Source of the DNA: an uncultured Clostridia bacterium
GTDB lineage: Bacteria > Bacillota > Clostridia > Oscillospirales > Ruminococcaceae
Assembly: GCA_944382845.1 (NCBI GenBank)
Contig: CALWNN010000021.1
Span: 1-32,159, forward strand
Reading direction: 5' to 3'
DNA length: 32,159 nucleotides
A model generated the notes under the pieces. The model was not told the DNA's origin and searched no databases. It was given only the letters and a program-made list of their open reading frames with translations. Shown piece after piece: positions 4,357 to 32,159 of the stretch (positions are counted from its first letter, which is position 1; each line of letters opens with the position of its first letter). The position numbers were made by a program, and so were the translations under genes.

Positions 4357-6649
<2,293 letters not shown>

Positions 6650-15847: not shown

Positions 15848-15855
15848 GGTAGAAT

Positions 15856-16178: not shown

Positions 16179-16208
16179 ATTACACAAACAAGAAGGGATC
16201 GGTGATAA

Positions 16209-17456: not shown

Positions 17457-18204
17457 AAATGAAGAATTCGGCAAAGTGAGAACAGTTATTAAGGACGGCG
17501 AGCCGTGGCTTGTAGGAAAAGATGTGGCGGAGATTTTAGGGTATTCCAACACGAGGGACGCTCTTTCACGTCATGTGGATACCGAGGATAAAACCACCGT
17601 CGTGATTTCCGACAGTGGTTCAAATTACAAGAGCAAGACCACTATCATCAATGAAAGCGGCTTTTACAGCTTAGTCCTTTCAAGCAAAATGCCGAGAGCA
17701 AAAGAGTTTAAGCGTTGGGTTACAGCCACGATTTTACCAACTTTGAGGAGAACAGGCGGCTACGTCGGCAACGAAGAAATGTTCATAAAAAACTACCTCC
17801 CATTTCTCGACGAGCCGTATCGGAATCTATTCCGCTTGCAGATGATGGCGATAAATCAGCTCAACGAGCGTATCCGCCACGATCAGCCGCTGGTGGAGTT
17901 TGCAAATCAGGTGTCAAACACCGATAATCTTATCGACATGAACGCTATGGCGAAGCTTGCGAGAGCCGAAAATATCCCCGTCGGCAGGAACAAGCTCTAC
18001 GGCTGGCTCAAAGGAAAAGGCGTGCTTATGGCGAATAATCTCCCCTATCAGGCGTTTATCGACCGAGGATATTTTTCCGTCAAGGAGTCGGTGTTTGAAA
18101 CTCCGACTATGACAAAGACCTATCAGCAGACGTTCGTTACGGGCAAGGGGCAGCAGTTCGTCATAAATCTGCTGAGAAAATATTATGGAAAAGAGGTTTT
18201 GTAA
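17431..18204 (+). CDS. BRO-N / KilAC antirepressor-like protein
   Basis: 257 residues with the two-domain layout of phage antirepressors: an N-terminal BRO domain (5-105; GEPWLVGKDVAEILGYSNTRDALSRHV and FKRWVTATILPTLRRTGGY) and a C-terminal KilAC/ANT-like DNA-binding domain (about 150-250; KLARAENIPVGRNKLYGWLK). It probably binds DNA or a repressor and adjusts element genes. ATG 17431 has GAGGAGG 8 bases ahead; the frame extends 7 codons upstream with no site. It starts inside the end of the methylase gene. Confidence 0.88.
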   Translation: MENMIRIFENEEFGKVRTVIKDGEPWLVGKDVAEILGYSNTRDALSRHVDTEDKTTVVISDSGSNYKSKTTIINESGFYSLVLSSKMPRAKEFKRWVTATILPTLRRTGGYVGNEEMFIKNYLPFLDEPYRNLFRLQMMAINQLNERIRHDQPLVEFANQVSNTDNLIDMNAMAKLARAENIPVGRNKLYGWLKGKGVLMANNLPYQAFIDRGYFSVKESVFETPTMTKTYQQTFVTGKGQQFVINLLRKYYGKEVL

Positions 18205-18206
18205 TA

Positions 18207-18377
18207 ATGGAGATAAGAAGCGTTTCTTTACACGATCTGAGAAAAATGAATGACAGCGAGGGACTTATCCTACAAGGCTGCGGCGGAGATTTGCAGGAAT
18301 GGGTCGACGGTATAAACGATATGCTGACGGAAAGCGGAATATTGCAGAAAGGAGAAAGCGAATGCCAAATCATGTGA
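18207..18377 (+). CDS. Small conserved element protein, 56 aa
   Basis: MEIRSVSLHDLRKM then NDSEGLILQGCGGDLQEWVD and a short C-terminal helix. The EGLILQGCGGD-LQEW block looks conserved and resembles small proteins I have seen in gut mobile elements, but I know no function. It starts two bases after the antirepressor stop and overlaps the next gene by 16 bases in another frame. Both overlaps suggest a tight operon. Confidence 0.7.
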   Translation: MEIRSVSLHDLRKMNDSEGLILQGCGGDLQEWVDGINDMLTESGILQKGESECQIM

Positions 18378-19258
18378 CAAACGTAATCAAATTAAACGGT
18401 GACAGAAAGCAGATTAGTGAGCTTTTGGAGCAGATCCAAAACGATGAGCTCGGACTTGGAACTATTGATTTTGAGAAGATAATTCCCATGCCTGAAAATA
18501 TCTACCGCGGCAATCTCGGTCAGGAGGAAATGAATCTCTACGGCAAAAACAACTGGTACGACTGGTGTATAGCAAATTGGGGTACGAAGTGGTCATCCTA
18601 TGGCTATGAGAAAGACTGTGATTACTCAAATGCCGAAGAACTGCGCTTCTTGACCGCCTGGGCAGCTCCCCATCCTGTAATTCAGCGATTATCGGAGATG
18701 TACCCCGAAATCAAAATTATTCATGAGTGGGCTGACGAGGACATCGGCATGAACTGCGGCAGATACGCGTATTACGACGGAGACCGCGTTGAAGAATTCT
18801 ATCCCGAAAATGAAAAGGAACGGCTTGAATTCGCGGCGAGGGTTATGGACGTTGATCTTGAGGATTACGGACTTTTACTCAACGCTTCTGAAACAGGATA
18901 TATCAATATCTATAGCGCCGACGAATATGAGCGTATAGAGCTATTCGGACAGACCGCGCTGTTTACCAACGGCAGGATAACAGACGCGGATATTCCCAAA
19001 GGAACGTATTGCTACGATTTAAGGCAGTCAGACGATGGAGAGGGTTTTTGTTCCATTGAAAAAATCGTTAAAGTAAATCACGGAGGCTCTGTCATAACCA
19101 AAGAGCCTATCGATCTCGGCGAAAAAGGCTTTGTTACTTTGACCGATGATACCGAACCGAATTTTATCGGCGAAACAAGCACGTTTACGGAGTTTATGAG
19201 CAATGAAGCTAGCTGCTCTATGGAAGAAACTGAAGATTTAGAAATGGAGATGATGTAA
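18362..19258 (+). CDS. Api92-like / DUF1281 N-terminus with LPD28 C-terminal domain
   Basis: 298 residues. The N-terminal half (MPNHVTNVIKLNGD, IDFEKIIPMPE, WYDWCIANWGTKW) matches the DUF1281/Api92 ferredoxin-like fold. The part from about 205 to 265 (LFTNGRITDADIPKGTYCYDLRQSDD, IVKVNHGGSVITKEPIDL) fits LPD28, a domain of large polyvalent proteins of mobile elements. The acidic tail ends EDLEMEMM. ATG 18362 has AAAGGAG 8 bases upstream; an earlier in-frame ATG lies within the previous gene and has no site. Function unknown; perhaps an anti-defence or DNA-processing helper. Confidence 0.8.
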   Translation: MPNHVTNVIKLNGDRKQISELLEQIQNDELGLGTIDFEKIIPMPENIYRGNLGQEEMNLYGKNNWYDWCIANWGTKWSSYGYEKDCDYSNAEELRFLTAWAAPHPVIQRLSEMYPEIKIIHEWADEDIGMNCGRYAYYDGDRVEEFYPENEKERLEFAARVMDVDLEDYGLLLNASETGYINIYSADEYERIELFGQTALFTNGRITDADIPKGTYCYDLRQSDDGEGFCSIEKIVKVNHGGSVITKEPIDLGEKGFVTLTDDTEPNFIGETSTFTEFMSNEASCSMEETEDLEMEMM

Positions 19259-19374
19259 TGACGTATTTATTCATAGGAATGACAGTCGGAGGAATAGTCG
19301 GAGCAACCGTAGGCTGTCTCTTTTCGGCGGTCAAGAATGCCGAAAAGGAAATAAAGAGACTTAAAGAAAAATAA
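19258..19374 (+). CDS. DUF3789 small membrane protein
   Basis: 38 residues: one glycine-rich membrane helix (LFIGMTVGGIVGATVGCLF, residues 4-22) and a short Lys/Glu tail. The layout fits DUF3789, tiny membrane proteins of conjugative elements. The start overlaps the stop of the preceding gene (TAATG), so it is coupled. Function unknown. Confidence 0.8.
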   Translation: MTYLFIGMTVGGIVGATVGCLFSAVKNAEKEIKRLKEK

Positions 19375-19379
19375 CAACT

Positions 19380-19445
19380 AAAGTCGTTTTGCCAATGACA
19401 GAAAACTTCTGTTTTTAGCAAAGCGACTTTCTTTCTGTCATTGGC
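19380..19445 (+). promoter_or_regulatory. Overlapping alternative hairpins after DUF3789
   Basis: Two long stems interleave. Stem 1: 19380-19392 (AAAGTCGTTTTGC) with 19418-19430, 13 bp with one wobble. Stem 2: 19391-19404 (GCCAATGACAGAAA) with 19432-19445, 14 bp perfect. They share two bases and cross in the order 1-2-1'-2', so they are either alternatives or a pseudoknot. A small CAGAA/TTCTG hairpin fits inside stem 1. No strong T-run follows. Confidence 0.65.
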
Positions 19446-19453
19446 TTTAAACG

Positions 19454-19558
19454 ATGGAGAAGGAAAAGTTGAAAGCGGTGCTTTCAACTACGAGTTTTGT
19501 GCTATGCACAAAACATCGGAAGGAGGTGTGCCTCCTTTCGGAGGCAAATAATATATGA
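19454..19558 (+). CDS. Candidate leader peptide of the adenine methylase, 34 aa
   Basis: A 34-codon frame MEKEKLKAVLSTTSFVLC, TKHRKEVCLLSEANNI that stops in TGA overlapping the methylase ATG (ATGA). It runs through three hairpins. Its translation would melt them and bring ribosomes to the methylase start. There is no good ribosome-binding site before its ATG, so it may be a chance frame; the exact ATGA overlap speaks for it. Confidence 0.4.
   Translation: MEKEKLKAVLSTTSFVLCTKHRKEVCLLSEANNI
19467..19545 (+). promoter_or_regulatory. Hairpin leader controlling the methylase ribosome-binding site
   Basis: Three or four tight hairpins in a row: AGTTGAAAGC/GCTTTCAACT (19467-19489), GTTTTGTGC/GCACAAAAC (19494-19514), then AAGGAGG/CCTCCTT (19520-19537) or, instead, GCCTCC/GGAGGC (19530-19545). 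The last two are mutually exclusive, and the second hides GGAGG at 19540-19544, the ribosome-binding site of the gene starting at 19555. Confidence 0.65.
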
Positions 19559-20937
19559 ACAGTTTTATGTCATGGGTAGGCGGAAAGAAAGCGTTAAGAG
19601 AAGAAGTTCTTGCAAGATTTCCAACCTATTATGAAAGGTATATAGAGGTTTTCGGCGGCGCGGGCTGGGTGCTGTTCCATAAGCCGCCGGGTATGGATTT
19701 TGAGGTCTGGAATGATTACAACGGAAATCTTGCAAACCTGTACAGATGCGTCCGTGAAAATCCGAATAAGCTGAAATACAAGCTAAGATACGTCCTTAAT
19801 TCCCGTGAGGATTTTGAGAGAATCGCAAATCTCCATAAGAATGGGATTTTCCCTAAGCTTTGCGACGTTGACAGAGCGGCGAAGTTCTATCAGCTTATTA
19901 GATACAGCTATGCTTCGGGACTTGACAGCTTTGCAAGTCAGCCCCATTCAATATGGTCGGATTTCCCGATGATAGACTTGGCGGCAAGGAGATTGCAGAA
20001 GGTCATAATCGAAAACAAGGATTTTGAAAAGCTGATACGGCAGTACGACCGCCCTGTCAGCTTTTTCTACTGCGATCCTCCGTACTTTGCAACCGAAAAC
20101 TACTACAAAGACGTTGGTTTTAAAACCAAGGATCACATCAGACTTCGTGATACGCTTCTTGGTATTTCGGGCAAATTTCTTGTTTCATACAATGATTGTC
20201 CCGAAATCCGTGAGATATGGAATAAGCCCAATATTCACATTGAGGAGATCAGCAGGCTGAATAACTTAGCGCAGCGATACGACGGAGGCTGTCAGTATGC
20301 AGAACTCTTCATAATCAGAACTGTACTTGACATAAATGATACTGTCGTTGATGTAGAAATTGAAGAACCCGAACCAACAGAACAATTTGCGAATGATGAC
20401 TTTTATGTTGATATTCCTCCGCAGTTCGATGAATCTGAGCAATCCGAAAATGCATTATCGGGATTTTTGAAGATTGAAAAGGACGATCAGACAGACAATA
20501 ATCTATATTACAAGCTGGGCGCTATGTTTAAAAATGGGTTTGGAACGGAAGCTGATATTTCTAAAGCCGTAGAATATTTTAATAAGTCAGCGGATATGAA
20601 TAAGTGGTCAAGCTATCAGCTTGGCAGGCTTTATCTTTTCGGAGCAGAGGGTCTTGAAAAAGATAAAGAAAAGGCTGTAGAGTGGCTTACAAAGTCCGCA
20701 AATGACGGTAATGAATACGCTCAGAACTTACTTGATAATATTGATGATTTTGAAAGTCAAATGCTTAGAAATACTGTTATGGGATTGTTTGTGAATTTAA
20801 GTAGGTGTATTGAAGATGACTATTACAAACGGTACAATTCGGTAAGGCAGACGGTGGATAAAAAGCTTAAGCAGATGATAAGGTTGAAAAAGCAGGATAT
20901 GGGAATTAAAGATGATAATACAATGGCAATGCAGTAA
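19555..20937 (+). CDS. DNA adenine methylase fused to Sel1 repeats and a relaxase-like tail
   Basis: 460 residues. Residues 1-265 are a D12-class N6-adenine methylase: MSWVGGKKALREEV (motif X, 4-17), YIEVFGGAGWVLF (motif I), and the catalytic DPPY at 174-177. A linker (265-315) leads to two Sel1-like repeats (about 317-395: YYKLGAMFKNGFG, AVEYFNKSADMN; YQLGRLYLFGAEG, AVEWLTKSANDGNEYAQ). The end (VDKKLKQMIRLKKQDMGIKDD) resembles the C-terminus of relaxases of gut elements. Such tails are not part of ordinary Dam enzymes, so the gene looks like a fusion left by deletion of the mobilisation genes. No partner nuclease is seen. Confidence 0.85.
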   Translation: MNSFMSWVGGKKALREEVLARFPTYYERYIEVFGGAGWVLFHKPPGMDFEVWNDYNGNLANLYRCVRENPNKLKYKLRYVLNSREDFERIANLHKNGIFPKLCDVDRAAKFYQLIRYSYASGLDSFASQPHSIWSDFPMIDLAARRLQKVIIENKDFEKLIRQYDRPVSFFYCDPPYFATENYYKDVGFKTKDHIRLRDTLLGISGKFLVSYNDCPEIREIWNKPNIHIEEISRLNNLAQRYDGGCQYAELFIIRTVLDINDTVVDVEIEEPEPTEQFANDDFYVDIPPQFDESEQSENALSGFLKIEKDDQTDNNLYYKLGAMFKNGFGTEADISKAVEYFNKSADMNKWSSYQLGRLYLFGAEGLEKDKEKAVEWLTKSANDGNEYAQNLLDNIDDFESQMLRNTVMGLFVNLSRCIEDDYYKRYNSVRQTVDKKLKQMIRLKKQDMGIKDDNTMAMQ

Positions 20938-20984: not shown

Positions 20985-21098
20985 AACTCGGAGCAAAGCC
21001 CGATGTAATGCTCGCACGCTTGCGTTGCAAGCTAAAACATCGGCTGCGACGAGGCAACCTCACCGCAGGAGCTTTAGCTCCTCGGGGATTAGGTTATA
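20981..21098 (+). repeat. Structured intergenic repeat, copy D (divergent)
   Basis: The left end TTTTAACTCGGAGCAAAGC matches copies A-C. The right end is shortened to CGGGGATTAGGTTATA. Interior hairpins: CCGATGT/ACATCGG enclosing GCTTGC/GCAAGC, and AGGAGC/GCTCCT. The TTATA end supplies the stop codon of the convergent kinase gene (21094). Confidence 0.6.
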
Positions 21099-22392
21099 AT
21101 TTAAGTGTAATATTAAGAGCAAATAAGCCATTGCTATTATCTATACAGAATGTACCGTTATGCCTGTTGACAGCATTCCGTATATTGTTAATACCGAATC
21201 CGTGATGTATTTTATCGTCCTTAGTGGTCAGCAAACTGATATTTTCTTCGCTTGCGGGGTTACGGATTGAAATAAACTGATATCCCTGTTGTGTACTCAG
21301 CTTTATATCAATTACTTTATGACCGCTGATCTTACTGCAAGCTTCTATGGCGTTGTCAAGAGCGTTGGTAAAAATGACACACAAATCTACAGGATCAAAG
21401 TCATGCGTAAACGAACCGTCCAAGCGTATTTCCGTATCGAATTCTTTGGCAGCCGAAGCTTTTTCTGCAAGAATCGAATCTAAAATATGATTTCCGCATT
21501 CAAACGACTTTGACGCTATGGTTTTTGACTTTGATAATTTATTTATGTACTGGGCAGCTTCTTCATTCTTGTTTGCTGAAATCAGCGATGAAACGCATTG
21601 CATATGATTAATGTAATCGTGTCTGAAGGAGTGGAACTCTTTCCTCATATTATCCAGAGCTTCATAATGCTTTAACTGAGTGTTAATTTGCTTTTTTAAA
21701 AGCGCGGACGTATCCTCATAGTACTTTTTTGACATATTGCTAATCAGCAGCAAAAACATTATAACAAACATTATAGCCGTTAAAATAAAAAGGAAAAATT
21801 CAAAGAAGCTTTTTTGCATAGCAAATTTATCGGTATCAATGGAAAGCGAGGAAATTATTCCTTCCAAAATAAAAACGCATAAAAGCATTAATATTCCTAC
21901 AGCTTTAGAGGTCGACTTAAATGCAAATGCCAAACTTTTAAAATGTCCTCTTTTGTTTATAAGGCAGATTAAACAGAGGACAAGCAGCTGAAATATCATT
22001 GATGTGATTTTTGTTATTACTAATTCATTTGAAACCGAAGACACAAGCTTAAATATCCATAAAGAGCAGCTTTGTATGAGAGAATCTAAAGAAATTAAAA
22101 AAATCGGCATGTATATTGAAATAAACTTTATTTTTTTAATGAAGATAAACGGAAAGACCAAAAAACGCAGATAATATACGGCAAGCAGTACCGACATCAC
22201 CAATTTTGATGACTCTGCAAAATACAAACTGAAAATCAGCGTGTATAATCCATGAATAACCGATATGGGGAATAATTTAATCAGGCTGAGTTTGAATTCT
22301 GCCAAATTAACGGATTTGATTATCAGTATCAAGTTGACGAGCAAAAATAAGTCGGAAATAATAAATGCTGTATTTGAAATCACATTGTTCAT
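21094..22392 (-). CDS. AgrC-like sensor histidine kinase (GHKL, HPK10 type)
   Basis: 432 residues. The N-terminal 215 residues form six or seven membrane segments, the sensor of this class. Then a coiled linker leads to the H-box FRHDYINH with phospho-accepting His258, the N-box NALDNAIEAC (Asn343) and the G-box HGFGINNIRNAV (398 on). The FRHDYxNH form is characteristic of AgrC/ComD-type kinases, which usually sense secreted peptides. No AgrB-like processing gene is nearby, so the signal is unknown. It follows the regulator gene by 4 bases and is co-transcribed. The stop codon lies within repeat D. Confidence 0.9.
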   Translation of the reverse strand: MNNVISNTAFIISDLFLLVNLILIIKSVNLAEFKLSLIKLFPISVIHGLYTLIFSLYFAESSKLVMSVLLAVYYLRFLVFPFIFIKKIKFISIYMPIFLISLDSLIQSCSLWIFKLVSSVSNELVITKITSMIFQLLVLCLICLINKRGHFKSLAFAFKSTSKAVGILMLLCVFILEGIISSLSIDTDKFAMQKSFFEFFLFILTAIMFVIMFLLLISNMSKKYYEDTSALLKKQINTQLKHYEALDNMRKEFHSFRHDYINHMQCVSSLISANKNEEAAQYINKLSKSKTIASKSFECGNHILDSILAEKASAAKEFDTEIRLDGSFTHDFDPVDLCVIFTNALDNAIEACSKISGHKVIDIKLSTQQGYQFISIRNPASEENISLLTTKDDKIHHGFGINNIRNAVNRHNGTFCIDNSNGLFALNITLKL

Positions 22393-22396
22393 TATA

Positions 22397-23104
22397 TCAG
22401 TCCTTTGTATTATACCTTACTATGTATTCCTGAAAGGCTCTTTTGAAATCGGGCAGATATCTTCTGCTTATGGAAGCACGCTCGTTATTATCGAAATATA
22501 TCGTCTTATTATCGTGATTTCTTATATGCAGAAAGCTTACGATGCACGATCTGTGGGAACGTATAAACCGGTCTTTGGGAAGCAGTTTTTCAATCTCCTG
22601 CATATACCGGCAGCATTCGAGGTGATTGTCGGCGGTTCGTATTACAGTGTGTTTGTCTTTTGATTCGACATAAATGATTTCAGACAATCTAACTTTCCAC
22701 GAACCGTCGTTAGTGTTCAATATCAGAAAATCATCTGTTTTAACAGAATCAAGATAATCGTCAATAGACTTAAACAGCTCGTCTTTTTTTATCGGCTTTA
22801 AAAGGAATCGGAATGTATTTACTTCAAAAGATTGAAAAACGATTTTCGGGAAGGCGGTGAGAAAGATAATAGCAGCGTTTGAATTTTTTAATCTAAGGCG
22901 TTTGGACGTTTCCAATCCGTCCATACCGTCCATTTGATAGTCCATAAATATAATATCGAATTTTTCAGCGCTTTGTAAAAGGGCATTGCCCGTTTTGAAA
23001 TATGCTGTTAATACCGGTTCTTTTTTAAATTTAGAATATTCATTCAAAAGCGTATGCAATTCTTCAAATAATGCTGTTTCGTCATCACAGACGGCAATCT
23101 TCAT
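22397..23104 (-). CDS. LytTR-family response regulator (AgrA-like)
   Basis: 235 residues: receiver domain 1-120 with the acidic pair Asp7-Asp8 and phospho-acceptor Asp55 in IIFMDYQMDGMDG, then a LytTR DNA-binding domain (about 135-230; IIYVESKDKHTVIRT, FIRSHRSCIVSF, ISRRYLPDFKRAF). LytTR proteins bind pairs of short direct repeats 21-22 bases apart and usually activate. Three such sites with identical cores lie in this window, the nearest 85 bases upstream of this gene's start on the divergent side. The ribosome-binding site is AAGGGGG. First gene of the operon. Confidence 0.93.
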   Translation of the reverse strand: MKIAVCDDETALFEELHTLLNEYSKFKKEPVLTAYFKTGNALLQSAEKFDIIFMDYQMDGMDGLETSKRLRLKNSNAAIIFLTAFPKIVFQSFEVNTFRFLLKPIKKDELFKSIDDYLDSVKTDDFLILNTNDGSWKVRLSEIIYVESKDKHTVIRTADNHLECCRYMQEIEKLLPKDRFIRSHRSCIVSFLHIRNHDNKTIYFDNNERASISRRYLPDFKRAFQEYIVRYNTKD

Positions 23105-23128
23105 ATTTTCGCCCCCTTTTTTCTTTTA

Positions 23129-23157
23129 ATTATAACATAGAACTATTTAAATAGCAA
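23129..23157 (-). promoter_or_regulatory. Promoter of the two-component operon
   Basis: On the minus strand TTGCTA (23157-23152), 17 bases, TATAAT (23134-23129). The spacer holds a perfect 12-base palindrome CTATTTAAATAG (23143-23154). The LytTR site at 23188 is 31 bases upstream of the -35, so autoregulation is possible. Confidence 0.65.
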
Positions 23158-23187
23158 GTAAAATTTTACAATAAAATACGTCCGAAC

Positions 23188-23257
23188 TACCGCTTACGCC
23201 GAATTTATGACCGTATTTCAGATATCTATAGACGAACCGATGAAAATGCTTTATACT
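23188..23257 (+). promoter_or_regulatory. LytTR operator 1 and promoter
   Basis: Direct repeats ACCGCTTAC (23189) and ACCGTATTT (23210), 21 bases start to start, then the shared string CAGATATCTATAGAC and a -10 TATACT at 23252-23257 with no recognisable -35. It drives the 11-aa peptide frame and the 148-aa gene. Spacing from the second repeat to the -10 is 42 bases, 5 more than in sites 2 and 3. Confidence 0.7.
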
Positions 23258-23291
23258 ACTCCCGAAATGAAGAAATGGGGAGGGATATAAA

Positions 23292-23327
23292 ATGTGGAGA
23301 TACATCTGGCAGATCATTTTCAAGTAA
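23292..23327 (+). CDS. Candidate 11-residue hydrophobic peptide MWRYIWQIIFK
   Basis: A tiny frame with an excellent ribosome-binding site (GGGGAGGG, 7 bases before ATG). It is the first translatable frame after the LytTR-controlled promoter, about 28 bases from the expected start of transcription. The peptide is rich in Trp and Ile with a basic C-terminus. It could be a signal, a membrane-active peptide or a translation leader for the next gene (15 bases on). It has no leader for secretion. Its existence as a product is a prediction. Confidence 0.5.
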   Translation: MWRYIWQIIFK

Positions 23328-23342
23328 TAGGATGGGATAGTT

Positions 23343-23789
23343 ATGGAAATAGTTGAAAAGCAATATTTATCAGTTGAGTCGCTGCTGTCATACAGGACAA
23401 GATCGACATACAATAAACTCGGTAAGTTGATCGATCACATTTCAAGCAGTCTGAAATCGCTTGAAATGGAGCAGACGGGAAATATTATTTTTTCCTTGAA
23501 AGAAAATACTTACGGAACAGATGAAGTAATACTTGATCTTGAGTTTTTTGTTCCTGTCAGCAAAGAGTTTAAAAGCAACGAATTTTATGTTTATAAGCCA
23601 CAAATCAAACTATACAATGCAGTCAGAGCAAGGCACTCAGGAACCTATGATACGCTTATAAATTCACGCAAGAAGTTTCAGACATATTTGTCTCAGAAGT
23701 GTTATCAGCCGATAACGGATTTTTATTATTATGTTAATAACAGCAATTTAGTGGATATTTATGTAGGAATCAACGGTAATATTGTTTGA
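23343..23789 (+). CDS. Hypothetical protein, 148 aa, in the LytTR regulon
   Basis: A soluble alpha/beta protein with no signal peptide or membrane helix. MEIVEKQYLSVESLLSYRTR at the start, a predicted helix at 24-42, then strands around GNIIFSLKEN, VILDLEFFVPVS and FYVYKPQIKLYNAVRARHSG. The layout (strand-helix-strand with a YxxR and an effector-like second half) recalls GyrI-like or DUF5085 small-molecule-binding folds, but I cannot assign it. The ATG follows a weak GGATGGGAT site. It is the second frame after operator 1; a hairpin GCGGGCA/TGTCCGC with a T-rich tail follows the stop. Confidence 0.75.
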   Translation: MEIVEKQYLSVESLLSYRTRSTYNKLGKLIDHISSSLKSLEMEQTGNIIFSLKENTYGTDEVILDLEFFVPVSKEFKSNEFYVYKPQIKLYNAVRARHSGTYDTLINSRKKFQTYLSQKCYQPITDFYYYVNNSNLVDIYVGINGNIV

Positions 23790-23794
23790 CATCA

Positions 23795-23913
23795 GGCGGG
23801 CAATTTTTGTCCGCTATTTCCTTTTTGTGACAAGTTTCGAGCTGATATGACCGCTTACGCCGAATTTATGACCGTATTTCAGATATCTATAGACAAAAAT
23901 GACCACTTATGAT
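23795..23913 (+). promoter_or_regulatory. LytTR operator 2 and promoter of the VWA gene
   Basis: A block closely similar to 28426-28545 over about 105 bases. It starts with a terminator-like hairpin (GCGGGCA/TGTCCGC, 23797-23815), then ACCGCTTAC (23850) and ACCGTATTT (23871), 21 bases apart, CAGATATCTATAGAC, AAAAATG and -10 TATGAT (23908-23913). The position of the -35 reads ATCTAT, far from consensus, as expected for an activator-dependent promoter. Confidence 0.7.
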
Positions 23914-23930
23914 AGCATAGCTTGTATATA

Positions 23931-23971
23931 AATAACAGATAAAAATTGCACGAAAAGTAATGTCTGTTATT
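23931..23971 (+). promoter_or_regulatory. Leader hairpin of the VWA gene
   Basis: Stem AATAACAGA/TCTGTTATT (9 bp, 23-base loop) followed after 14 bases by TTTTTT. It may be an attenuator. The rest of the leader to 24100 shows no convincing gene; the start of the VWA gene has GGAGG 6 bases before ATG. Confidence 0.35.
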
Positions 23972-24099
23972 TCAGATATATATTTTTTCGTAATGATTTC
24001 TTTTGCTGCTTTTGCCAGTGATCAGAGTATTCAATGAGAAATTAAAGAAATCGTACAGAAAACAAGTGAGATGCGGTAAATTCGCAGAATGGAGGAAAT

Positions 24100-27000
24100 A
24101 TGAAAAACAGACTTGTTCAGAAAACAAAAAGACTTTTGTCGGGCGTTGTTGCTGTTGCGATGACGGCAACTATGTTACCGGCTTTTCCCGCGGTTGCAGA
24201 AAGCAGTGAGAAATATCCGTATACACTCTTCGCGGGCTCAGGCGAAGAAGGAGCGATTACTGTTAACGCGGGCAACTTCTGCGTAAATGGAAATGTTGCG
24301 ACAGGCGGTACGATCGTATCAAGCGGTAATATGAACATCAATGGCACAAAGACTGAAAACGCGGATGAAGCAATGATTTTCATCTTTGATAAGATTGATT
24401 CCAAGTATTTCTCAACAGGCAATGTTGATGAATTCACTGAGGATTATACTCTTGAAGAAATCAACATCAACATTAACACACCCACAGAGGTAATGGGTGA
24501 AACCACCCTTACAGGTAACATTAACATCAACACAGCGCTTAAATCCCTTGAAGATGTAAATCTCTACGGCGAGGTTAAGAACACAAATGATTCCTTGATT
24601 TTTTCTAAATATGGTGATATAATCATAGATAGCCAGAATGTTAATCTTAACGGTCTGGTTTACGCGCCGTTTGGCGACGTTGAGATTACAGCTCAGAATC
24701 TTAACCTCAACAATGTTGTGATTATTGCCGATACTATCACTCTTAATTGTCCTAATGTTAACGCGAATTACAGCGGTAATGCCGCTGAGTTTGTGGGCGC
24801 TGTTTCTGATCCTTTGGATATCCCTGCCAATGAATGGCAGTATATGAAGGATGAAAACGAGAATGGCTTACCTGATTTCTTTGAAGATATGAATAACTGG
24901 GAGCTTCTCAAAGATACAGACGGCGATAAGCTTCCGGACAGTATTGAACAGTATCTTGGAAGCGACAGTACGTTAGTAGATACCGACGGCGACCTTCTTG
25001 ATGACTATTATGAGGTATTTGTTATCGGAACTGACCCGACTGTGATCGATACAGATGAAAACGGAATTACAGACGGTGATGAGGATTTTGACGAGGACGG
25101 TCTTACAAATTACGAAGAATATATTCAGACAACTTCACTTTGGTCGGAAGATTCGGATAGCGACAGTCTTACTGACGGCGAAGAAGTAAATACATATGGA
25201 ACTGATCCTTTAGAGCCTGATACTGATTTTGATGGTCTTGAAGATGGCGATGAAATATATCTTGGAACTGATCCTACAAATCCCGATACAGATGGAGACG
25301 GCATTCTTGATTGTGATGAGAAATTTTATCAGACCTTTACGCATATAGTAGAGAATGAGGACTGCGCTGTTGAAGAAGTTATCGTATCTATGGAAGGTAC
25401 AGGCAATCTTCAGACGAACACTACTATCGAAAGCGTAATGGATAAAGATGTGATTTGCAGTGAGGTAGTCGGCTTGGTTGGTGAGCCATTCTCCATTGAA
25501 ACAACTTCACAGTTTGATACTGCTACGCTCACTTTTAAAATTGATCGGTCAAAGCTCGGTGATACCGTATTTGACAACCTTATGTTCTTATGGTATGATG
25601 AAGAAAATTATGAATTTGTAGAACTGGAAACATTCTATGATTACGAGAACAGCACCGTAAGCATTGAAACAACTCATTTCAGCAAATATATGGTTGTTGA
25701 TAAGTATCTTTGGTTTGAAGCGTGGGCTGTAGAGTTTAATTATAATCCTGCTGAAGAAGGCACTCACGGAGAACCCACTATTCGTTATAATACCGTATTG
25801 GCAATTGACTGTTCTGGTAGTATGAGTGGCAATGACCCAATAACAACTGTATCTGGAATAGATTCTGCATACGAAGCACAGTTTTCAAAAACTTGTCAGA
25901 GAATCAAGGCGGCAACAGGTTTTATTACAAATATGAATGATTGCGATAAAGTTGCTGTTGTCCTCTTTTCTGGAAGTGCATATGTAGCGGCAGAAATGAC
26001 AAATGATACTGAAACATTAAAGCTTGCTTTGCAAAATGTAAATAACAGCGGCTCCACAAGTTTTAATGCAGCTATTACTACATCTGTGAACGCTTTTGAT
26101 TCGAGTGATATTGGTGATGTCAATACAAACAATAGAATAATTCTTTTGTCAGATGGTGGTTCTTCAGTTTCTGACAGCGTATTGGATACGGCCAAGTCGA
26201 AGGATATTGAAATTTATACAATCGGGCTTGGCTCAAGTTCAAATGATGCAAGGCTTGAATATATCGCTGATTATACAGGTGGAGAATTTTTCAAAGCATA
26301 TACTGCTGATGAATTAATTGACATCTATACTGAGGTAGGCATTAATAGTGATTTTGATACCACTGATACCGATGGTGATGGTTTATACGATGCTGTTGAA
26401 TCTGCTGGAATAAGGCTTCAGAATGGAGTGATTTTAAAAAACAACCCTGAAACTGATACTTTTTATGCTAATCCCGCTAAGATAGATACGGACGAAGATG
26501 GACTGAATGATGGTGTCGAAATAGACCCTACTATCCGTTGGAAAAGTGGGAGTGCTCATTCAGGTCAGAGAGAGTATTTCTTTGTAATGTATTCTAATCC
26601 TGGCGACAAAGATTCGGATGGAGATAGTATTAATGATTACGAAGATCCTTTAAAATTAGAACACGGAATTTGTAGAAGTTTGTCTCTATATGATAAAACT
26701 TCCCTTTATAGCGACATTGATAATCAAATTAAAACAGATTTTAGTTGGATTATGCAGAATAAAAACATTGGTTATTACTCCACATCAGACTGTATAGATA
26801 TCTTGTACAAATATGATGAACTTATAACACAATTAAGCAATGAATATTTTATACCTAAAGCCGCTATCCAATCAATTTTACTTCGAGAATTACGTTGCTA
26901 TGATATTAGAGATGATATAGCTGACTCATTGGTTATGCAACAATTTACATATCAATATCTTGTTGATGTGTATAATAATTCCGAGTGGTGGCAGCAATTG

Positions 27001-27375
27001 TTAATGGGATATCCAGATATCCCAATTCCTTACAGAGAAGACTCAAGCGTTGGATATGGTCAAATATTTGCTAATACGGCGATAAATGCAAATAACTGGG
27101 CTGTTAACACAGGTGTTTTTGAGGGAGAAATCTACAATTATGATATCTGGACTGAGCGAGAATATATTTGGACAAAATTAAAAGATGATAACGAATACAA
27201 TATTGAGATGATTTCTCTTATATTAATGTATGGCGTTAGTGATAGAGGCTTTGGGGATAAGTATTGGAAATATGATGAAGCACAAATGAAAAAAATGTTG
27301 TCTATATATAATGGTGATGATGATTATGGTGCTGAAGTGTATAACTGCTATCTTATCTTTGATAAATACAACTAA
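24100..27375 (+). CDS. Secreted VWA/TSP3 protein with lysozyme-like C-terminus
   Basis: 1091 residues. A signal peptide (1-33, ending AVAES) is followed by glycine/asparagine-rich beta-strand repeats (40-235; FCVNGNVATGGTIVSSGN, VYAPFGDVEIT), about seven calcium-binding DxDxDG TSP3 repeats (252-405), a conserved linker ending TTHFSKYMVVDK (about 535), a VWA domain with MIDAS D570-x-S572-x-S574, and three more TSP3 repeats (755-850). The last 240 residues are different: ELxxxD with Glu930 and SSVGYGQI (982-989) with a following TA recall lytic transglycosylase folds. That DNA is visibly richer in A and T. The layout suggests a polymorphic effector with an exchangeable tip. The tip assignment is inference; the rest is firm. 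Confidence 0.85.
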   Translation: MKNRLVQKTKRLLSGVVAVAMTATMLPAFPAVAESSEKYPYTLFAGSGEEGAITVNAGNFCVNGNVATGGTIVSSGNMNINGTKTENADEAMIFIFDKIDSKYFSTGNVDEFTEDYTLEEINININTPTEVMGETTLTGNININTALKSLEDVNLYGEVKNTNDSLIFSKYGDIIIDSQNVNLNGLVYAPFGDVEITAQNLNLNNVVIIADTITLNCPNVNANYSGNAAEFVGAVSDPLDIPANEWQYMKDENENGLPDFFEDMNNWELLKDTDGDKLPDSIEQYLGSDSTLVDTDGDLLDDYYEVFVIGTDPTVIDTDENGITDGDEDFDEDGLTNYEEYIQTTSLWSEDSDSDSLTDGEEVNTYGTDPLEPDTDFDGLEDGDEIYLGTDPTNPDTDGDGILDCDEKFYQTFTHIVENEDCAVEEVIVSMEGTGNLQTNTTIESVMDKDVICSEVVGLVGEPFSIETTSQFDTATLTFKIDRSKLGDTVFDNLMFLWYDEENYEFVELETFYDYENSTVSIETTHFSKYMVVDKYLWFEAWAVEFNYNPAEEGTHGEPTIRYNTVLAIDCSGSMSGNDPITTVSGIDSAYEAQFSKTCQRIKAATGFITNMNDCDKVAVVLFSGSAYVAAEMTNDTETLKLALQNVNNSGSTSFNAAITTSVNAFDSSDIGDVNTNNRIILLSDGGSSVSDSVLDTAKSKDIEIYTIGLGSSSNDARLEYIADYTGGEFFKAYTADELIDIYTEVGINSDFDTTDTDGDGLYDAVESAGIRLQNGVILKNNPETDTFYANPAKIDTDEDGLNDGVEIDPTIRWKSGSAHSGQREYFFVMYSNPGDKDSDGDSINDYEDPLKLEHGICRSLSLYDKTSLYSDIDNQIKTDFSWIMQNKNIGYYSTSDCIDILYKYDELITQLSNEYFIPKAAIQSILLRELRCYDIRDDIADSLVMQQFTYQYLVDVYNNSEWWQQLLMGYPDIPIPYREDSSVGYGQIFANTAINANNWAVNTGVFEGEIYNYDIWTEREYIWTKLKDDNEYNIEMISLILMYGVSDRGFGDKYWKYDEAQMKKMLSIYNGDDDYGAEVYNCYLIFDKYN

Positions 27376-27415
27376 AAATAACATCACCGCTGTACTAATT
27401 AAGTAGGAGGCAAAA

Positions 27416-27976
27416 ATGATGAAAAGGCTTCTATCTTGTGCGTTATCGTTTTTATTCTTGCTCTTGTTAACATCATGTACTGATGATTGGATGCCGTATG
27501 AAAACACAGAGTATGATATTAATCAGAAAGTTAAAGGTAATATATTCCTGATTTCAGAAATTGAATCTGAGCTTTTGGAATTAGCTGCAGAATATGATAA
27601 CGATGCTAAACTGACATTTGTTCAATATAAATTTGAAAGTGAAACTTCCGGTACTGCTGAATTTCAATTCTTTAGAGAATACGAAAAAAATGGTAAGTAT
27701 TATAGTGTTCTTATCACCTTATTTGCAAATATTGATGATAGCATTATATACAAAGTATGCTATGAAGAAGGCATTAGTAAAAGAGTTACCGGATATAGAA
27801 ATGCCATTATTCGCAATGATGAAGACGCATACGATATTTACACTTCATATTTGAACAACACCGATTTAGAAGAAAGAAACGATCTTTTGTATTCGACGGT
27901 ACTTTTTTATGATGATAATGTTGTTGTATGCAATTACGACGAAAACAATGATTTAATTTCAAGGTCTGAACTTTAA
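27416..27976 (+). CDS. Lipoprotein, candidate immunity protein
   Basis: 186 residues. A lipoprotein signal ends LLLLLTSC with Cys21, so the mature protein is anchored outside the membrane. The rest has no membrane segment and no family I recognise; it is acidic and alpha/beta-like. It starts 40 bases after the VWA gene with AGGAGG 5 bases ahead and shares its A/T-rich composition. Position, export route and composition fit an immunity partner against a cell-wall-acting C-terminal domain, but this is inference. A strong terminator follows. Confidence 0.75.
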   Translation: MMKRLLSCALSFLFLLLLTSCTDDWMPYENTEYDINQKVKGNIFLISEIESELLELAAEYDNDAKLTFVQYKFESETSGTAEFQFFREYEKNGKYYSVLITLFANIDDSIIYKVCYEEGISKRVTGYRNAIIRNDEDAYDIYTSYLNNTDLEERNDLLYSTVLFYDDNVVVCNYDENNDLISRSEL

Positions 27977-28051
27977 TAGCAATTTACACACTCTATGAAT
28001 AAATTACCATTGTTTTATAATCCAAACAACTAAAAGTGCACTTAGACATTA

Positions 28052-28095
28052 ACGGCAGATGTTGTAGTTTTTCTACATCATCTGCCGTACTTTTT
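28052..28095 (+). terminator. Terminator after the lipoprotein gene
   Basis: Stem ACGGCAGATGTTGTAG / CTACATCATCTGCCGT (16 bp, one mismatch) with a TTTTT loop and TTTTT shortly after. Confidence 0.9.
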
Positions 28096-28096
28096 A

Positions 28097-28425
28097 TACA
28101 CAAATTCATAATCTGCTGTTTTGTTTTTGCACAATGGGAATTAAGCATTGGATATGTAACGTATCAATTTCTCGGGTGTAGGTTCTTTTCTGTTTCTACA
28201 GTATTACATCACTAACAGTTATATTTTCTAACCAATAGTATATCTGATTATATGATAAATTACACAAACTAAAGGAAATTTGCAGTGACTAATGGTTATA
28301 TGACATACGAAATCTTGATATCATTTCTTTACAGGAAATTGACACTATATCTTTTTCTAAATCAGAAGGTCGTGTATGAACAATGTGATCGAGAATATTA
28401 GTAAAAAAGACTTCTACTTTATTTC
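28097..28425. other. Intergenic region without a recognisable gene
   Basis: A/T-rich. The only frame of note is a 28-codon one starting at 28376 (MNNVIENISKKDFYFISSGN...) with AGAAGG ahead; it runs into the operator 3 block, so it is probably chance or a relic of a gene displaced when the promoter block was copied. Confidence 0.5.
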
Positions 28426-28545
28426 GTCGGGTAATTTGCTGTCCGCGGTTTCCTTTTTATGACAAATTTTAAGCCGATATGACCGCTTACGCCGAATTTT
28501 TGACCGTATTTCAGATATCTATAGACAAAAATGGTTGTTTATGAT
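28426..28545 (+). promoter_or_regulatory. LytTR operator 3 and promoter of the YD-repeat surface genes
   Basis: Closely similar to 23795-23913. ACCGCTTAC (28482) and ACCGTATTT-like repeat (28503), 21 bases apart, CAGATATCTATAGAC, AAAAATG, -10 TATGAT (28540-28545). The leader to 28658 contains a CTGACA/TGTCAG hairpin and no gene. Confidence 0.7.
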
Positions 28546-28657
28546 ATGTTTTAACGGAGTAAATTGGCGGTGATGCAGCGCTGACAAAGCCCAATTCTGT
28601 CAGTTACGAATATTAGCAGTCATTACTCAAAAAATTACAAAGATATGAGGATGTAAT

Positions 28658-31030
28658 ATGAAAAAGTCAAGAAAAAAGCAGGCAGCTATCGGCATAGGGG
28701 CATTTACAGCCGCTGGTCTGTGTGCAGCCGCTGTATTTGCATTTACTACTGCGCGGCTTAATGATAATCCGTGGGAACACGCCCTGCTTGCCGGAGAAAC
28801 AAATGGCACACTCAGTGCGGATAATAAAAACTTTATTGTTAATGGAGATATACGTTCAAACGGAAGTATACGTATAAATTCGGAAACAGTTAAGGTCAAT
28901 GGATATGTCGCTGCTGTTTCATCTGTAACAGGAACCGTGCCGGATGAAGATATTTTTGAAAATGTTCAATCATCAGCATTTCCTAATGTTTATGAAAATG
29001 TATATAGCATTGCCGATGAATACGAATTGACGCTCGATACAAATTCGTCATATAAAAACAGCAGTCTGGTTCTTGATGATAAAGCAATATCTTCAGCCAC
29101 ATTAAACATAGATATAAATTCCGAATATGAGCCGACATCCGATGAAGTTTCTGACATAACCGGAAAAATCGGAGCCTTCGGCGCAAATTTCTTTGCTAAA
29201 ACATATTCAAACTTCGACAGATGGTCGCAGATACTTCCTGTTATGTACAACTCTTCTGATACGGAAACGCATTCCTTGGCCGAGCTTGGGCAAAACAGTA
29301 ATTTTATTCCTTTACAGGAGCAGAACGTAAGTAATTCATGGTCTGATTATGATAAACTTTCAGGAGCGGCAATTACAAATAATTTTTCTGAATCAAATCT
29401 AACGAAGTATATGTCTGATTTGAAATCAGACAATCCCGTAACGAAAATCTGTTCGGAGGATAGCATTACTATCCAGGCAAGCAATTCAATAAACCCTGCC
29501 GAAGCTGAATCGGCTAAGAAAATAACGGTTGAGGGCGGTCATTTTTCTTTAAATGGAGAGTATAGCGATCTTGAAGAAATAAAGTTTAATTCGTGGGGAG
29601 GTTCTCAGCTTATTGGAGATTATCCGAATCTTAAATATATATATAAGACATCAGGTTCCGATCTTAATCTTGTAGGAAATTTCCCCTCTTTAGAATGCGT
29701 ATATATGCAGGGTGGTCAGCTTCTTATTGGTTCCGGAGACAGCGGATTTAACGCCGACGGAGTAAAAATTATAAACGATTACGGCCCCATAGCAATCTAT
29801 ACGGCGAAGGACGTCACTTTAACAAATAGTGATATCGTCACAACGCAAATGATTCTTGTAAGAGGAAACGGTTCGGATCAGCCCGGGTCTGTATTTAACT
29901 CAGAAAATACAATAATGGCGGCAAGGTCCGGTGTGATGTTTGAAGATATGAACGATTCAAATATCAGGCGTTTTGACAAGTTGCCGATATATTATTCTAC
30001 ATATCCGATGTCAATAAATAATTGCAATTTCAAGCTGTTTCAAGGTACTATTATAAACAACAATAATGCGATAATTATGTCAAATGCAAATATAAGTAAG
30101 TTCCGTGGCTATTTGTTTGCCCCTGATGGAGTAGATGAATACAGGAATTCGTCAGCTGTCGGTTTTTACATAAATACATATGCATACAACATATCACCGA
30201 ATATAAACAACCTAAATAAACAGCCGAATGGTTCAGAAAGAATAGGCAGAATAAGCGAATTTGAGTATGGAAAATTCCCTAATGAATTACTGAATAAAAT
30301 ATCGGATTCGGATAAATTTCTTGCCGATCTTCAGAATAACGATGTCGGATTGGAATTAGGCGAAAGCAGTAAAAAGCCGGGAGAGCTTGTAATAGGAAGA
30401 TATATACTTGCCGATGGGGATATAAATATTTGTGCTGATACTATAATTAACGGTGATGATTCCATTGCGGTTATTGCTTCAAGAAACGGAAATATAACAA
30501 TTAATGTGACCGATAGTGCGAAAATTACTGCTATTATCTATGCTCCCTGCGGTAAAGTTACGATAAACGGAAACGAGTATGAAATCAAAGGACGAATATT
30601 TGCTGAAAATATAGAGATCAATGCTTCATCATTTGAAATAACGAGCGGCAGCGAGGATATATCGTATCTCGGATTTGTTTATGACAAAAAGACCGATGAT
30701 ACGTCAAGCGAATCTGAAAGCAGTTCAGATTCGTCTACAACGGAATCAACTGAGGATAGCAGCAGCGAATCAAAAACTGAAAGCAGCGGTTCAGAGACTA
30801 CAAGCGAAAGCACCACCGAATCCACAAGCGAAGAAAGTTCAAAGCCGGATGAAAGTTCGTCTGAAAGCAGCGGCGGTGAATCGGGATTTGATAATCCCAA
30901 ATATGAGTATGATCTGCTTAACAGACTTGTAAAAGTTATTTACGATGATGACAACTATATTGAATATATATATGACGCTAATGGAAATATAACCAAGATC
31001 GTTACTGTGGCAGACGGAAAAGAGCAGTAA
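28658..31030 (+). CDS. Surface protein with beta-repeat region, Ser-rich stalk and YD repeat
   Basis: 790 residues. A signal or anchor helix (7-32) is followed by LLAGETNGTLSADNKNFIVN, which aligns with the same region of the VWA protein (LFAGSGEEGAITVNAGNFCVN). Asn/Gly-rich strand repeats continue to about 660; YAPCGKVTINGNEYEIKGRI near 628-647 matches YAPFGDVEIT of the VWA protein. Then a Ser/Glu/Thr stalk (about 682-745) and a single YD repeat (YEYDLLNRLVKVIYDDDNYI, then YIYDANGNITKI). YD repeats normally occur in long series in Rhs/wall-associated proteins; one copy is unusual. No LPXTG. The next gene starts 18 bases on. GAGG site 7-8 bases before ATG. Confidence 0.82.
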   Translation: MKKSRKKQAAIGIGAFTAAGLCAAAVFAFTTARLNDNPWEHALLAGETNGTLSADNKNFIVNGDIRSNGSIRINSETVKVNGYVAAVSSVTGTVPDEDIFENVQSSAFPNVYENVYSIADEYELTLDTNSSYKNSSLVLDDKAISSATLNIDINSEYEPTSDEVSDITGKIGAFGANFFAKTYSNFDRWSQILPVMYNSSDTETHSLAELGQNSNFIPLQEQNVSNSWSDYDKLSGAAITNNFSESNLTKYMSDLKSDNPVTKICSEDSITIQASNSINPAEAESAKKITVEGGHFSLNGEYSDLEEIKFNSWGGSQLIGDYPNLKYIYKTSGSDLNLVGNFPSLECVYMQGGQLLIGSGDSGFNADGVKIINDYGPIAIYTAKDVTLTNSDIVTTQMILVRGNGSDQPGSVFNSENTIMAARSGVMFEDMNDSNIRRFDKLPIYYSTYPMSINNCNFKLFQGTIINNNNAIIMSNANISKFRGYLFAPDGVDEYRNSSAVGFYINTYAYNISPNINNLNKQPNGSERIGRISEFEYGKFPNELLNKISDSDKFLADLQNNDVGLELGESSKKPGELVIGRYILADGDINICADTIINGDDSIAVIASRNGNITINVTDSAKITAIIYAPCGKVTINGNEYEIKGRIFAENIEINASSFEITSGSEDISYLGFVYDKKTDDTSSESESSSDSSTTESTEDSSSESKTESSGSETTSESTTESTSEESSKPDESSSESSGGESGFDNPKYEYDLLNRLVKVIYDDDNYIEYIYDANGNITKIVTVADGKEQ

Positions 31031-31048
31031 CTCAGATGGAGGAAAACA

Positions 31049-32159
31049 ATGAAAAAAGTAGTTAAACGATTAATTGCTCAAGCTATAGCAGTAGCAATGA
31101 CTGTGCAGATGGTGGGACAGATATGCCCGCCGTTTAACAGTATTAAAGCATATGCCGACAATGTTTCAGAGCAGGATATAAACGCAGAAATAGCGGAAGA
31201 CGCGGCTGGTAATGCTGAATTTCAGGATGATTCCGCTTCAAGTACTGAAGAAGAACTGCGGTTTGAGGATATGACTGTATCAAACAATCTGACGCTTAAT
31301 GCGTTAACGGAGGTTCAGAATCTTTATATCAGCGGCGGTACATTGGACTTAAATGGAAATACACTTATTGTACACGGAGATGTGATCATTAACGATCGTG
31401 GTAGTTTGAACTTCAATAAAGGTGAGCTCATATGTAATAATTTCTCAATGAGTGGAACATATTATTCGCATTATTTATATATGCAAAACCCCAACGATAA
31501 GCTTGTAGTCAACGGCGATTTTAATTTCACAGGCGGATATTTTTCAAGTGATATAGGAAATTCGGGTGTTATTGAAGTAGCAGGCGATGTAAATATAACC
31601 TATGGTTTCACACCGTCAGGAAATAATAAGTTTATTCTTAACGGTCTTGATAAGCAAAGCGTATATATAAATGGCGGCAGCTGCAAATTCAACATTCTTG
31701 AAATTGCAAACACCGATGACGAAGGTGTTGTCAGCAGTGTAGCCTTAAATGCTGATAGTATAATAGGTTCGCTTAATCAGCTTCATTATACCGTTGGAGG
31801 CTCAATAGGAACTGTTCTTCAAGATGATTCTGAAATCAACGATAATTATTGTTTGGCTGTAGGCGACCTTGATCTTAACGGAAACACTCTGATTATCAAC
31901 GGAGATTTTATACAGTCCGGAGGAAATGTAATCCTTAACGGAGGACATCTGATCGTAAACGGAAACTATCTCATTCAGACGGAAAACGATGATGGAACCT
32001 TCAGCTACAGTACGGGAAAACTCAATATGACAAATGAATCCGACCTTGTAGAGGTATCGGGTAACTTTGTTATGGGCTCAACCAAAAATCACAACGGATT
32101 TCTGACAAACGGTACGCTGAAAATCGGCGGAAACTTTTCACAGGTTAATTACGGATCGG
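31049..32159 (+). CDS. Large secreted surface protein, 3' end beyond the window
   Basis: 370 codons are visible and the frame is still open at the window edge. A signal peptide (MKKVVKRLIAQAIAVAMTVQ, ending IKAYA) is followed by an acidic stretch (about 35-75) and repeats of the type LDLNGNTLIVHGDVIINDRG, LDLNGNTLIINGDFIQSGGN, LIVNGNYLIQ, LKIGGNFSQV, which suggest a parallel beta-helix. GGAGG 7 bases before ATG 31049. It forms an operon with the preceding gene. The repeats resemble the N-terminal parts of the two other surface proteins. A long Rhs/YD region with a toxin tip may follow outside the window, but that cannot be seen. Confidence 0.8.
   Translation, partial: MKKVVKRLIAQAIAVAMTVQMVGQICPPFNSIKAYADNVSEQDINAEIAEDAAGNAEFQDDSASSTEEELRFEDMTVSNNLTLNALTEVQNLYISGGTLDLNGNTLIVHGDVIINDRGSLNFNKGELICNNFSMSGTYYSHYLYMQNPNDKLVVNGDFNFTGGYFSSDIGNSGVIEVAGDVNITYGFTPSGNNKFILNGLDKQSVYINGGSCKFNILEIANTDDEGVVSSVALNADSIIGSLNQLHYTVGGSIGTVLQDDSEINDNYCLAVGDLDLNGNTLIINGDFIQSGGNVILNGGHLIVNGNYLIQTENDDGTFSYSTGKLNMTNESDLVEVSGNFVMGSTKNHNGFLTNGTLKIGGNFSQVNYGS

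Follow-up and report, generated by a model that had tools for sequence, protein, structure and literature searches.

The last third of a 32,159-nucleotide stretch from an uncultured gut bacterium (Clostridia, Ruminococcaceae) (GenBank assembly GCA_944382845.1, contig CALWNN010000021.1, positions 1 to 32,159; hereafter the window) encodes what may be an AgrCA-like switch, with an 11-residue, apparently unprocessed peptide as its likeliest signal, a cytosolic DUF5085-like protein that would bind the peptide, and a regulon of antibacterial surface proteins. We give this reading about an even chance of being correct. In its simplest form, the account is that of an AgrCA-like feedback switch in which a tiny peptide would take the place of AgrD. 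Conservation of the open reading frames (ORFs), promoter geometry and gene pairing are established by sequence comparison. An earlier sequence-only reading of the window had proposed an AgrC/AgrA-like system with a local regulon; the arrangement does recur in related genomes, with a 21-base-pair (bp) repeat period, but the locus itself is not an agr locus, as both AgrB and AgrD are missing. The core of the system comprises four genes.

21094 to 22392, minus strand: GHKL sensor kinase of 432 amino acids, with about seven hydrophobic segments followed by SPOB_a and HATPase_c_5 domains (Pfam, hydropathy).
22397 to 23104, minus strand: LytTR response regulator of 235 amino acids, with Response_reg and LytTR domains (Pfam).
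23292 to 23327, plus strand: ultrashort gene for the 11-residue peptide MWRYIWQIIFK, with a strong Shine-Dalgarno sequence, GGGGAGGGA; candidate autoinducer.
23343 to 23789, plus strand: DUF5085-like soluble protein of 148 amino acids, conserved and without a transmembrane-like segment; candidate cytosolic peptide binder.

The domain content thus confirms the kinase and regulator families originally assigned. Against the NCBIfam AgrC (Staph) profile the kinase scores 21.7 bits, far under the cutoff of 500. Eighty loci were retained when genome contigs were scanned with the regulator (L numbers below; G numbers are genomes); the closest, L022-L027, encode orthologues at 51-89% identity. A regulator search of 100 relatives matched seven, among them G300, G002, G049 and G021 at 38-52%.

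The sequence-only reading had listed the tiny ORF among the targets of the regulator and called the input unknown; this same ORF, which shows amino-acid conservation, is the best candidate signal. An ORF of 8-14 codons with a strong Shine-Dalgarno sequence, followed by a gene of about 150 codons, opens the divergent strand in the window and at L022-L027, L103, L104 and L135-L137. The peptide MWRYIWQIIFK is identical in the window, L022 and L024. The other loci encode MWRYIWQIIFKK (L023), MWRYIWQIIFG (L026), MWQYIWQIIFG (L025), MSWIDHILHLIFG (L103), MFRRIWFIVFGY (L104), MGFWHKLY (L027), MSWLGYLWYWILGK twice (L135), MGFWDCIWYWIFG (L136) and MSFWRYFCYWLFGV (L137). Under a fixed rule, a tiny ORF lies between the LytTR/GHKL pair and the DUF5085-like gene at 12 of 14 divergent loci, window included, and at 13 of 14 within 300 bases; these loci were picked for having a DUF5085-like gene divergent from the regulator, and L024, L026 and L027, the same contigs as G225, G259 and G168, are each counted once. 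By the same rule an ORF precedes 20 of 935 background genes, five of the 20 being true cases; the background genes were required to have their own ribosome site and the 14 loci were not, and some contigs enter the background twice. A degenerate peptide pattern occurs in 3 of 394 genomes, always at this system.

Substitution patterns in the tiny ORF point in the same direction. Over ten codons, the window and L025 differ by 11 nucleotides but only two amino acids (6.6 expected; 0 of 5000 simulations as low). The window and L026 differ by six nucleotides and one amino acid (p 0.0012), and L025 and L026 by seven nucleotides and one amino acid (again 0 of 5000 simulations as low). Among the window, L022, L023 and L024, no two ORFs are more than one base apart, and these closest pairs carry no information for this test. 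Evidence that the tiny ORF is translated is therefore strong, as judged from substitution patterns.

Translation alone could also serve a leader peptide that, through ribosome stalling or translational coupling, tunes translation of the 148-residue protein. The stop codon of the tiny ORF lies 15 bases ahead of the next start, and arrest peptides are likewise conserved at the amino-acid level. We consider a leader peptide rather improbable, given that equivalent positions hold very different peptides and that in L135 (G200, about 2431-2561) the ORF is duplicated: two tandem genes encode the same peptide with synonymous differences only, each with its own ribosome-binding site. Moreover, at L032 and L036 the ORFs MIWDILSWFMP and MFIWDILNWFI diverge from related LytTR/GHKL pairs. 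Behind each come a strong hairpin and a T-run; no partner gene was recognised downstream, and a DUF5085-like gene in particular is absent. These two came from a hydrophobicity filter over the 80 regulator loci that scored at 17 of them: six known, L032, L036, L030, L034 and seven others, several of which fall within the regulator gene and seem incidental. A trp-type attenuator was set aside on the ground that just 15 bases separate the two ORFs.

Further short ORFs were seen beside related regulators. At L034 (Ruminococcus albus KH2T6, 12260-12298), a 12-residue ORF, MWERIWGKGGGH, follows a LytTR/GHKL pair and precedes a gene that is radical-SAM-like by eye; it may be a minimal modified-peptide precursor. 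At L108 (G418, another family; 4895-4945), a 16-residue ORF, MFMFMREWLNWLMGVL, diverges from a related regulator and is followed by a repeat that is terminator-like by eye.

No AgrB was found in the window or the 80 regulator loci with a profile built from two AgrB sequences, and the window's contig has no PF04647 match. Where an AgrD precursor with amphipathic leader, thiolactone region and acidic tail would be expected, the locus holds only the 11-codon ORF. An agr locus as the identity of the system was accordingly set aside, both AgrB and AgrD being missing. The claim of the sequence-only reading that neither is present holds for the locus but not for the genome (G000), where AgrB matches lie at C73 and C64, both intact, and at C33, with an internal stop. 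Those two intact matches lend some weight to another explanation, in which agr loci in other parts of the genome would supply the autoinducing peptide to which the pair, an orphan AgrCA, responds, with the tiny ORF playing no part. We regard this as very unlikely: five of the nine genomes with the tiny-peptide system lack any PF04647 match genome-wide (G225, G002, G168, G200 and G049, the last 75% complete; matches are present in G000, G259, G241 and G205), and the tiny ORF shows few amino-acid changes. On these genome sequences, AgrB is not needed in several genomes that carry the tiny-peptide system.

The contig with the interrupted AgrB match (L164, G000:C33, 7441-17072) holds a second LytTR/GHKL pair and, by eye, an AgrD-like remnant; a protein of 2286 amino acids with VWA, lectin, PKD and transglutaminase-like domains follows the AgrB/AgrD-like remnants.

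The 148-residue protein of the window has no Pfam match; two of its relatives match PF16895 (DUF5085) at 24.8 and 24.3 bits, under the cutoff of 30. A PDB sequence search with the DUF5085-like alignment gave three weak matches, the strongest of them a tRNA pseudouridine synthase (E 0.022). Across the family sample there are 22 DUF5085-like matches in 19 of 397 genomes, and 15 of the 22 adjoin a LytTR/GHKL pair. Only G000 among five sampled genomes of the window's genus carries the gene, so the module is accessory. In G230 (L140) the DUF5085-like gene follows AgrA, AgrC, AgrB and a 69-residue ORF that is AgrD-like by eye (no Pfam match), and on the R. albus 7 plasmid pRUMAL03 (L168, 4784-9100) a LytTR/GHKL pair is followed by a DUF5085-like gene and then by two huazacin-family genes for ribosomally synthesized and post-translationally modified peptides (RiPPs). 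On these grounds, the DUF5085-like gene seems to be a frequent companion of peptide-signalling loci.

Published DUF5085 proteins suggest a different role. In two papers (PMC10434224, PMC12744356), they are cytosolic immunity proteins of GyrI-like fold; TipE and ExiA/ExiB neutralise membrane-acting toxins, ExiB via a hydrophobic GyrI-like cleft. The 11-residue peptide might then be a toxin or bacteriocin of ultrashort length that acts on membranes, with the DUF5085-like protein as its cytosolic immunity, and the two-component pair would sense something else; the hydrophobic, aromatic character of the tiny peptides (by hydropathy) would suit such a toxin. Three observations make this explanation unlikely in our view: the tiny ORFs of L032 and L036 stand without a DUF5085-like gene, the gene also follows AgrB and an AgrD-like ORF at L140, and the core occurs at L023, L103 and L104 without a recognised effector nearby, no homologues of the window's effectors being found near it there.

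Returning to the AgrCA-like switch, its promoters lie behind three direct repeats.

23189 to 23218, plus strand: LytTR-type direct repeat, site 1 (half-sites 23189-23197 and 23210-23218).
23229 to 23257, plus strand: promoter 1, TAGACG-17-TATACT (sequence comparison).
23795 to 23815, plus strand: terminator-like hairpin after the 148-residue protein gene, weak (z -1.8; 11 of 200 shuffles as good).
23850 to 23879, plus strand: LytTR-type direct repeat, site 2 (pattern search).
23890 to 23918, plus strand: promoter 2, TAGACA-17-TAGCAT (sequence comparison).
28482 to 28511, plus strand: LytTR-type direct repeat, site 3 (pattern search), apparently a copied cassette.
28522 to 28550, plus strand: promoter 3, TAGACA-17-TATGTT (sequence comparison).

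The repeats ACCGCTTAC-n12-ACCGTATTT proposed at 23189, 23850 and 28482 are exact matches. The window contains no further copy at up to three mismatches, shuffled sequence yields a mean of 0.05 (0 of 100 shuffles reach three), and the 2.14-Mb genome (93 contigs) has no other perfect copy; imperfect copies with two or three mismatches occur in three places, as many as the matches of a reversed-pattern control. Each site consists of two 9-base half-sites at a 21-base period followed by TAGAC[AG]-N17-TANNNT, and a 45-base block with one free position fits all three with 0 mismatches. The notion of one shared core applies to the blocks, which are the same across sites but for one base, and not to the two half-sites, which agree at only 5 of 9 bases. 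Only site 1 has the regulator diverging from it, although divergence from all three had been claimed; the claim that each site precedes different genes is borne out, namely the 11-codon ORF with the 148-residue protein gene, the VWA/TSP3 protein with the lipoprotein, and two beta-repeat proteins. The statement that the promoters are without a -35 proved too strong. All three have a -35-like TAGAC[AG] 17 bp before the -10, so that each promoter, by sequence comparison, carries a degenerate -35 at optimal spacing. The -10 TATACT called at site 1 stands; TATGAT at sites 2 and 3 is real, yet it sits 5 bases upstream of where a 17-bp spacing would place it.

Sites 2 and 3 have 119 bp in common at 86.6% identity, a stretch that takes in most of the terminator-like end of the 148-residue protein gene; apparently, the second promoter was copied as a cassette before a new operon. 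The three sites are therefore not independent evidence for the motif. Among the 14 divergent regions, 21 bp comes out alone as the best period in seven, ties with others in five and is not the best in two, in a test that used a loose consensus picked after the sites had been seen. In related genomes the motif is found as well, the 45-base block recurring at up to three mismatches in G225 and G391, but these are only 2 of 397. In both, the block precedes a gene for a protein of about 470 amino acids; the two genes are related and have no counterpart in the window. The homologues (MGRFF...; L024, 5517-6944, and L106, 11578-12975; genus g64) have the promoter cassette as in the window and no Pfam match.

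The operon behind site 2 encodes a secreted protein with a candidate toxin domain, and a lipoprotein.

24100 to 27375, plus strand: protein of 1091 amino acids with signal peptide and beta-repeats (by eye), TSP3, VWA and a C-terminal lysozyme-like domain.
26677 to 27375, plus strand: C-terminal domain of 232 amino acids, candidate peptidoglycan-cleaving toxin (recurrence; weak similarity to goose-type lysozyme).
27416 to 27976, plus strand: lipoprotein of 186 amino acids (lipobox by eye), candidate immunity protein (homologue 3' of the same domain in L160 and L161).

Pfam confirms the VWA and TSP3 domains assigned earlier. The 232-residue domain has no Pfam match and no direct PDB match. It occurs in four other genomes of 298 searched, each from another genus, at 85, 56, 37 and 32% identity. 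In G202 a related VWA protein, encoded 3' of genes for a LytTR regulator, a GHKL kinase and AgrB, ends in the domain; in G132 it stands behind a Peptidase_C39_2 (C39-peptidase-like) domain; in G043 it is encoded alone; and in G144 it lies in a contig-edge fragment of a related VWA protein, with 69% identity to the window protein over the 39 residues upstream of the domain. The five relatives share invariant E71, S124, G126 and Q129 (S-x-G-x-x-Q), and a PDB profile search returned only three matches, all goose-type lysozymes (E 0.22-0.23), aligned around the Glu only; the invariant Glu and S-x-G-x-x-Q, together with these weak matches as the only ones, suggest a muramidase. A homologue of the lipoprotein, which has no Pfam match, lies directly 3' of the domain at L160/G144 (75%) and L161/G202 (29%), and none was recognised at the other two domain loci (L162, L163). 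From this pairing, the domain and lipoprotein possibly form a toxin/immunity pair. The description of these products as surface effectors thus stands in so far as a regulon of secreted proteins is supported, and for the VWA operon it narrows to a possible toxin with lipoprotein immunity.

Lipoprotein genes also lie 3' of the core elsewhere. L025 (253-2291) has three tandem near-identical lipoproteins of 207 residues (by eye), two preceded by the short ORF MYIIKPSN, possibly an orphan immunity array. In L027 (1-8000), many small lipoprotein-like genes alternate with short DQWWITGF ORFs (mostly by eye); one lipoprotein tested is DUF5104, and two short ORFs tested are DUF4474-like under cutoff.

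Two further surface proteins follow site 3.

28658 to 31030, plus strand: surface protein of 790 amino acids, weakly DUF7305/bactofilin-like, with a C-terminal RHS repeat (RHS_repeat 23.6 bits, cutoff 22).
31049 to 32158, plus strand: beta-repeat secreted protein truncated by the contig end (longer relative of 1689 amino acids at L136).

Both beta-repeat proteins claimed for site 3 are present, but the last ORF runs off the contig. The 790-residue protein scores 22.5 bits against DUF7305 (cutoff 27). Of 18 genomes searched, 3 have a match to the last protein, always next to a two-component system of this kind. In G300, homologues of both proteins adjoin the pair, the tiny ORF and DUF5085-like gene being missing there, and in G241 a homologue of the last protein is accompanied by a CBM2/TSP3 protein. 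A deaminase-like C-terminus seen by eye on the L136 protein of about 1690 residues was dropped, as Pfam gave no support. Homologues of the VWA protein likewise lie beside such a system in L026/G259 and G021. At L026, 271 residues of the VWA protein are present at 86% identity, against 47-59% for kinase, regulator and 148-residue protein; the effectors probably move separately from the core, to judge by this disparity. In G300 (L102, 1695-2174) the regulator diverges directly to the 790-residue homologue; between them only a short hydrophobic ORF lacking a clear ribosome site was seen by eye.

On the other side of the system (15200-20937), DNA methylases and LPD28 and DUF1281_C domains adjoin it, and the region resembles part of a mobile element. 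A phage-borne system was set aside: the regulator's matches in 55 phage records are all under 60% identity (26-32% among the matches listed), and the viral contigs hold no relative of the DUF5085-like alignment or of the VWA C-terminal domain and no match to the peptide or promoter patterns.

Taken together, the proposed switch would run as follows. The tiny hydrophobic, Trp-rich peptide, for whose translation the sequence evidence is strong, would be exported or inserted into the membrane and, from either location, act on the multi-pass GHKL kinase. The kinase would phosphorylate the LytTR regulator, as is established for these families, and the regulator would bind the 21-bp-period repeats abutting the weak -35 elements and activate three promoters, a step in keeping with the promoter sequences. 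Promoter 1 would feed back on the peptide and on the DUF5085-like cytosolic protein, which may bind or sequester it. Promoters 2 and 3 would drive secreted surface proteins, one ending in the lysozyme-like candidate toxin domain, with the lipoprotein gene after that domain as candidate immunity in view of domain recurrence and gene pairing. In effect, the cell would antagonise its neighbours under the control of density or kinship.

Several observations weigh against this scheme. The immunity role of DUF5085 proteins elsewhere (PMC10434224, PMC12744356) would suit a tiny toxin instead, and 7 of the 22 DUF5085-like matches have no LytTR/GHKL pair in the stretch examined (several near contig ends). 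L105/G021 has kinase, regulator and divergent DUF5085-like gene but no tiny ORF, the tiny ORF of L145 (MWREIMEIINKIFG) lies as far as 271 bases upstream, and none was seen in the co-directional relatives L141, L143 and L147 or in the region upstream at co-directional L168. Repeat scores are little or no better than those of shuffles in 4 of the 14 regions (L027, L103, L104, L145), and the 232-residue domain matches lysozyme only weakly (E 0.22). Among the annotated neighbours, none was recognised as an exporter or a processing enzyme for a leaderless 11-mer.

More broadly, and with somewhat less than even confidence, we propose a new class of Gram-positive pheromone: encoded, leaderless, unprocessed hydrophobic peptides of 8-14 residues. 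AgrC-like GHKL kinases would sense them in the absence of AgrB/AgrD, DUF5085-like proteins would handle them in the cytosol, and they would control surface weapons of lysozyme-like and RHS-like type in relatives of Ruminococcus from the gut and rumen. Among the matches listed from open-licence PMC papers, we found no description of a tiny-peptide LytTR/GHKL system. Genes of 8-14 codons sit under the usual annotation limits, so a whole signal class could be overlooked. If the proposal is right, there would be a ligand to test for the AgrC-like kinases of gut Firmicutes that are now classed as orphans, and synthetic 11-mers would give experimental access to the way in which these commensals control contact-type toxins.

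Among known systems, agr (AgrBDCA of Staphylococcus aureus and Clostridia) is similar in its multi-pass GHKL kinase and LytTR regulator, direct-repeat sites beside weak promoters and secreted effector regulon. The locus described here differs in having neither AgrB nor AgrD, and its candidate signal is an ORF of 8-14 residues with no leader and no conserved Cys/Ser. The -35/-10 spacing is 17 here versus 18 and 20 in AgrA P2 and P3, as given in PMC4227749. The LytTR-GHKL-hypothetical-huazacin cluster of pRUMAL03 shares the adjoining kinase, regulator and DUF5085-like gene, but is co-directional, has no tiny ORF that we could see, and continues into RiPP genes. Streptococcal short hydrophobic peptides (SHPs) of the SHP/Rgg systems and phenol-soluble modulins likewise come from short hydrophobic peptide genes tied to regulation; SHPs are longer than the peptide here, are processed and act on cytosolic Rgg, and modulins have about 20 residues or more. 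The DUF5085 immunity proteins TipE and ExiA/ExiB resemble the 148-residue protein in size and in the weak PF16895 similarity of two relatives; here, scores fall under the Pfam cutoff and a two-component system and tiny ORF adjoin rather than an LXG toxin. Finally, unlike polymorphic toxins with TSP3/VWA/RHS-type secreted proteins, the site-2 operon is linked to LytTR-type promoters and its toxicity is a candidate property only, yet it resembles them in a C-terminal domain that recurs across genera, partly in other protein contexts, and in a linked candidate immunity gene.

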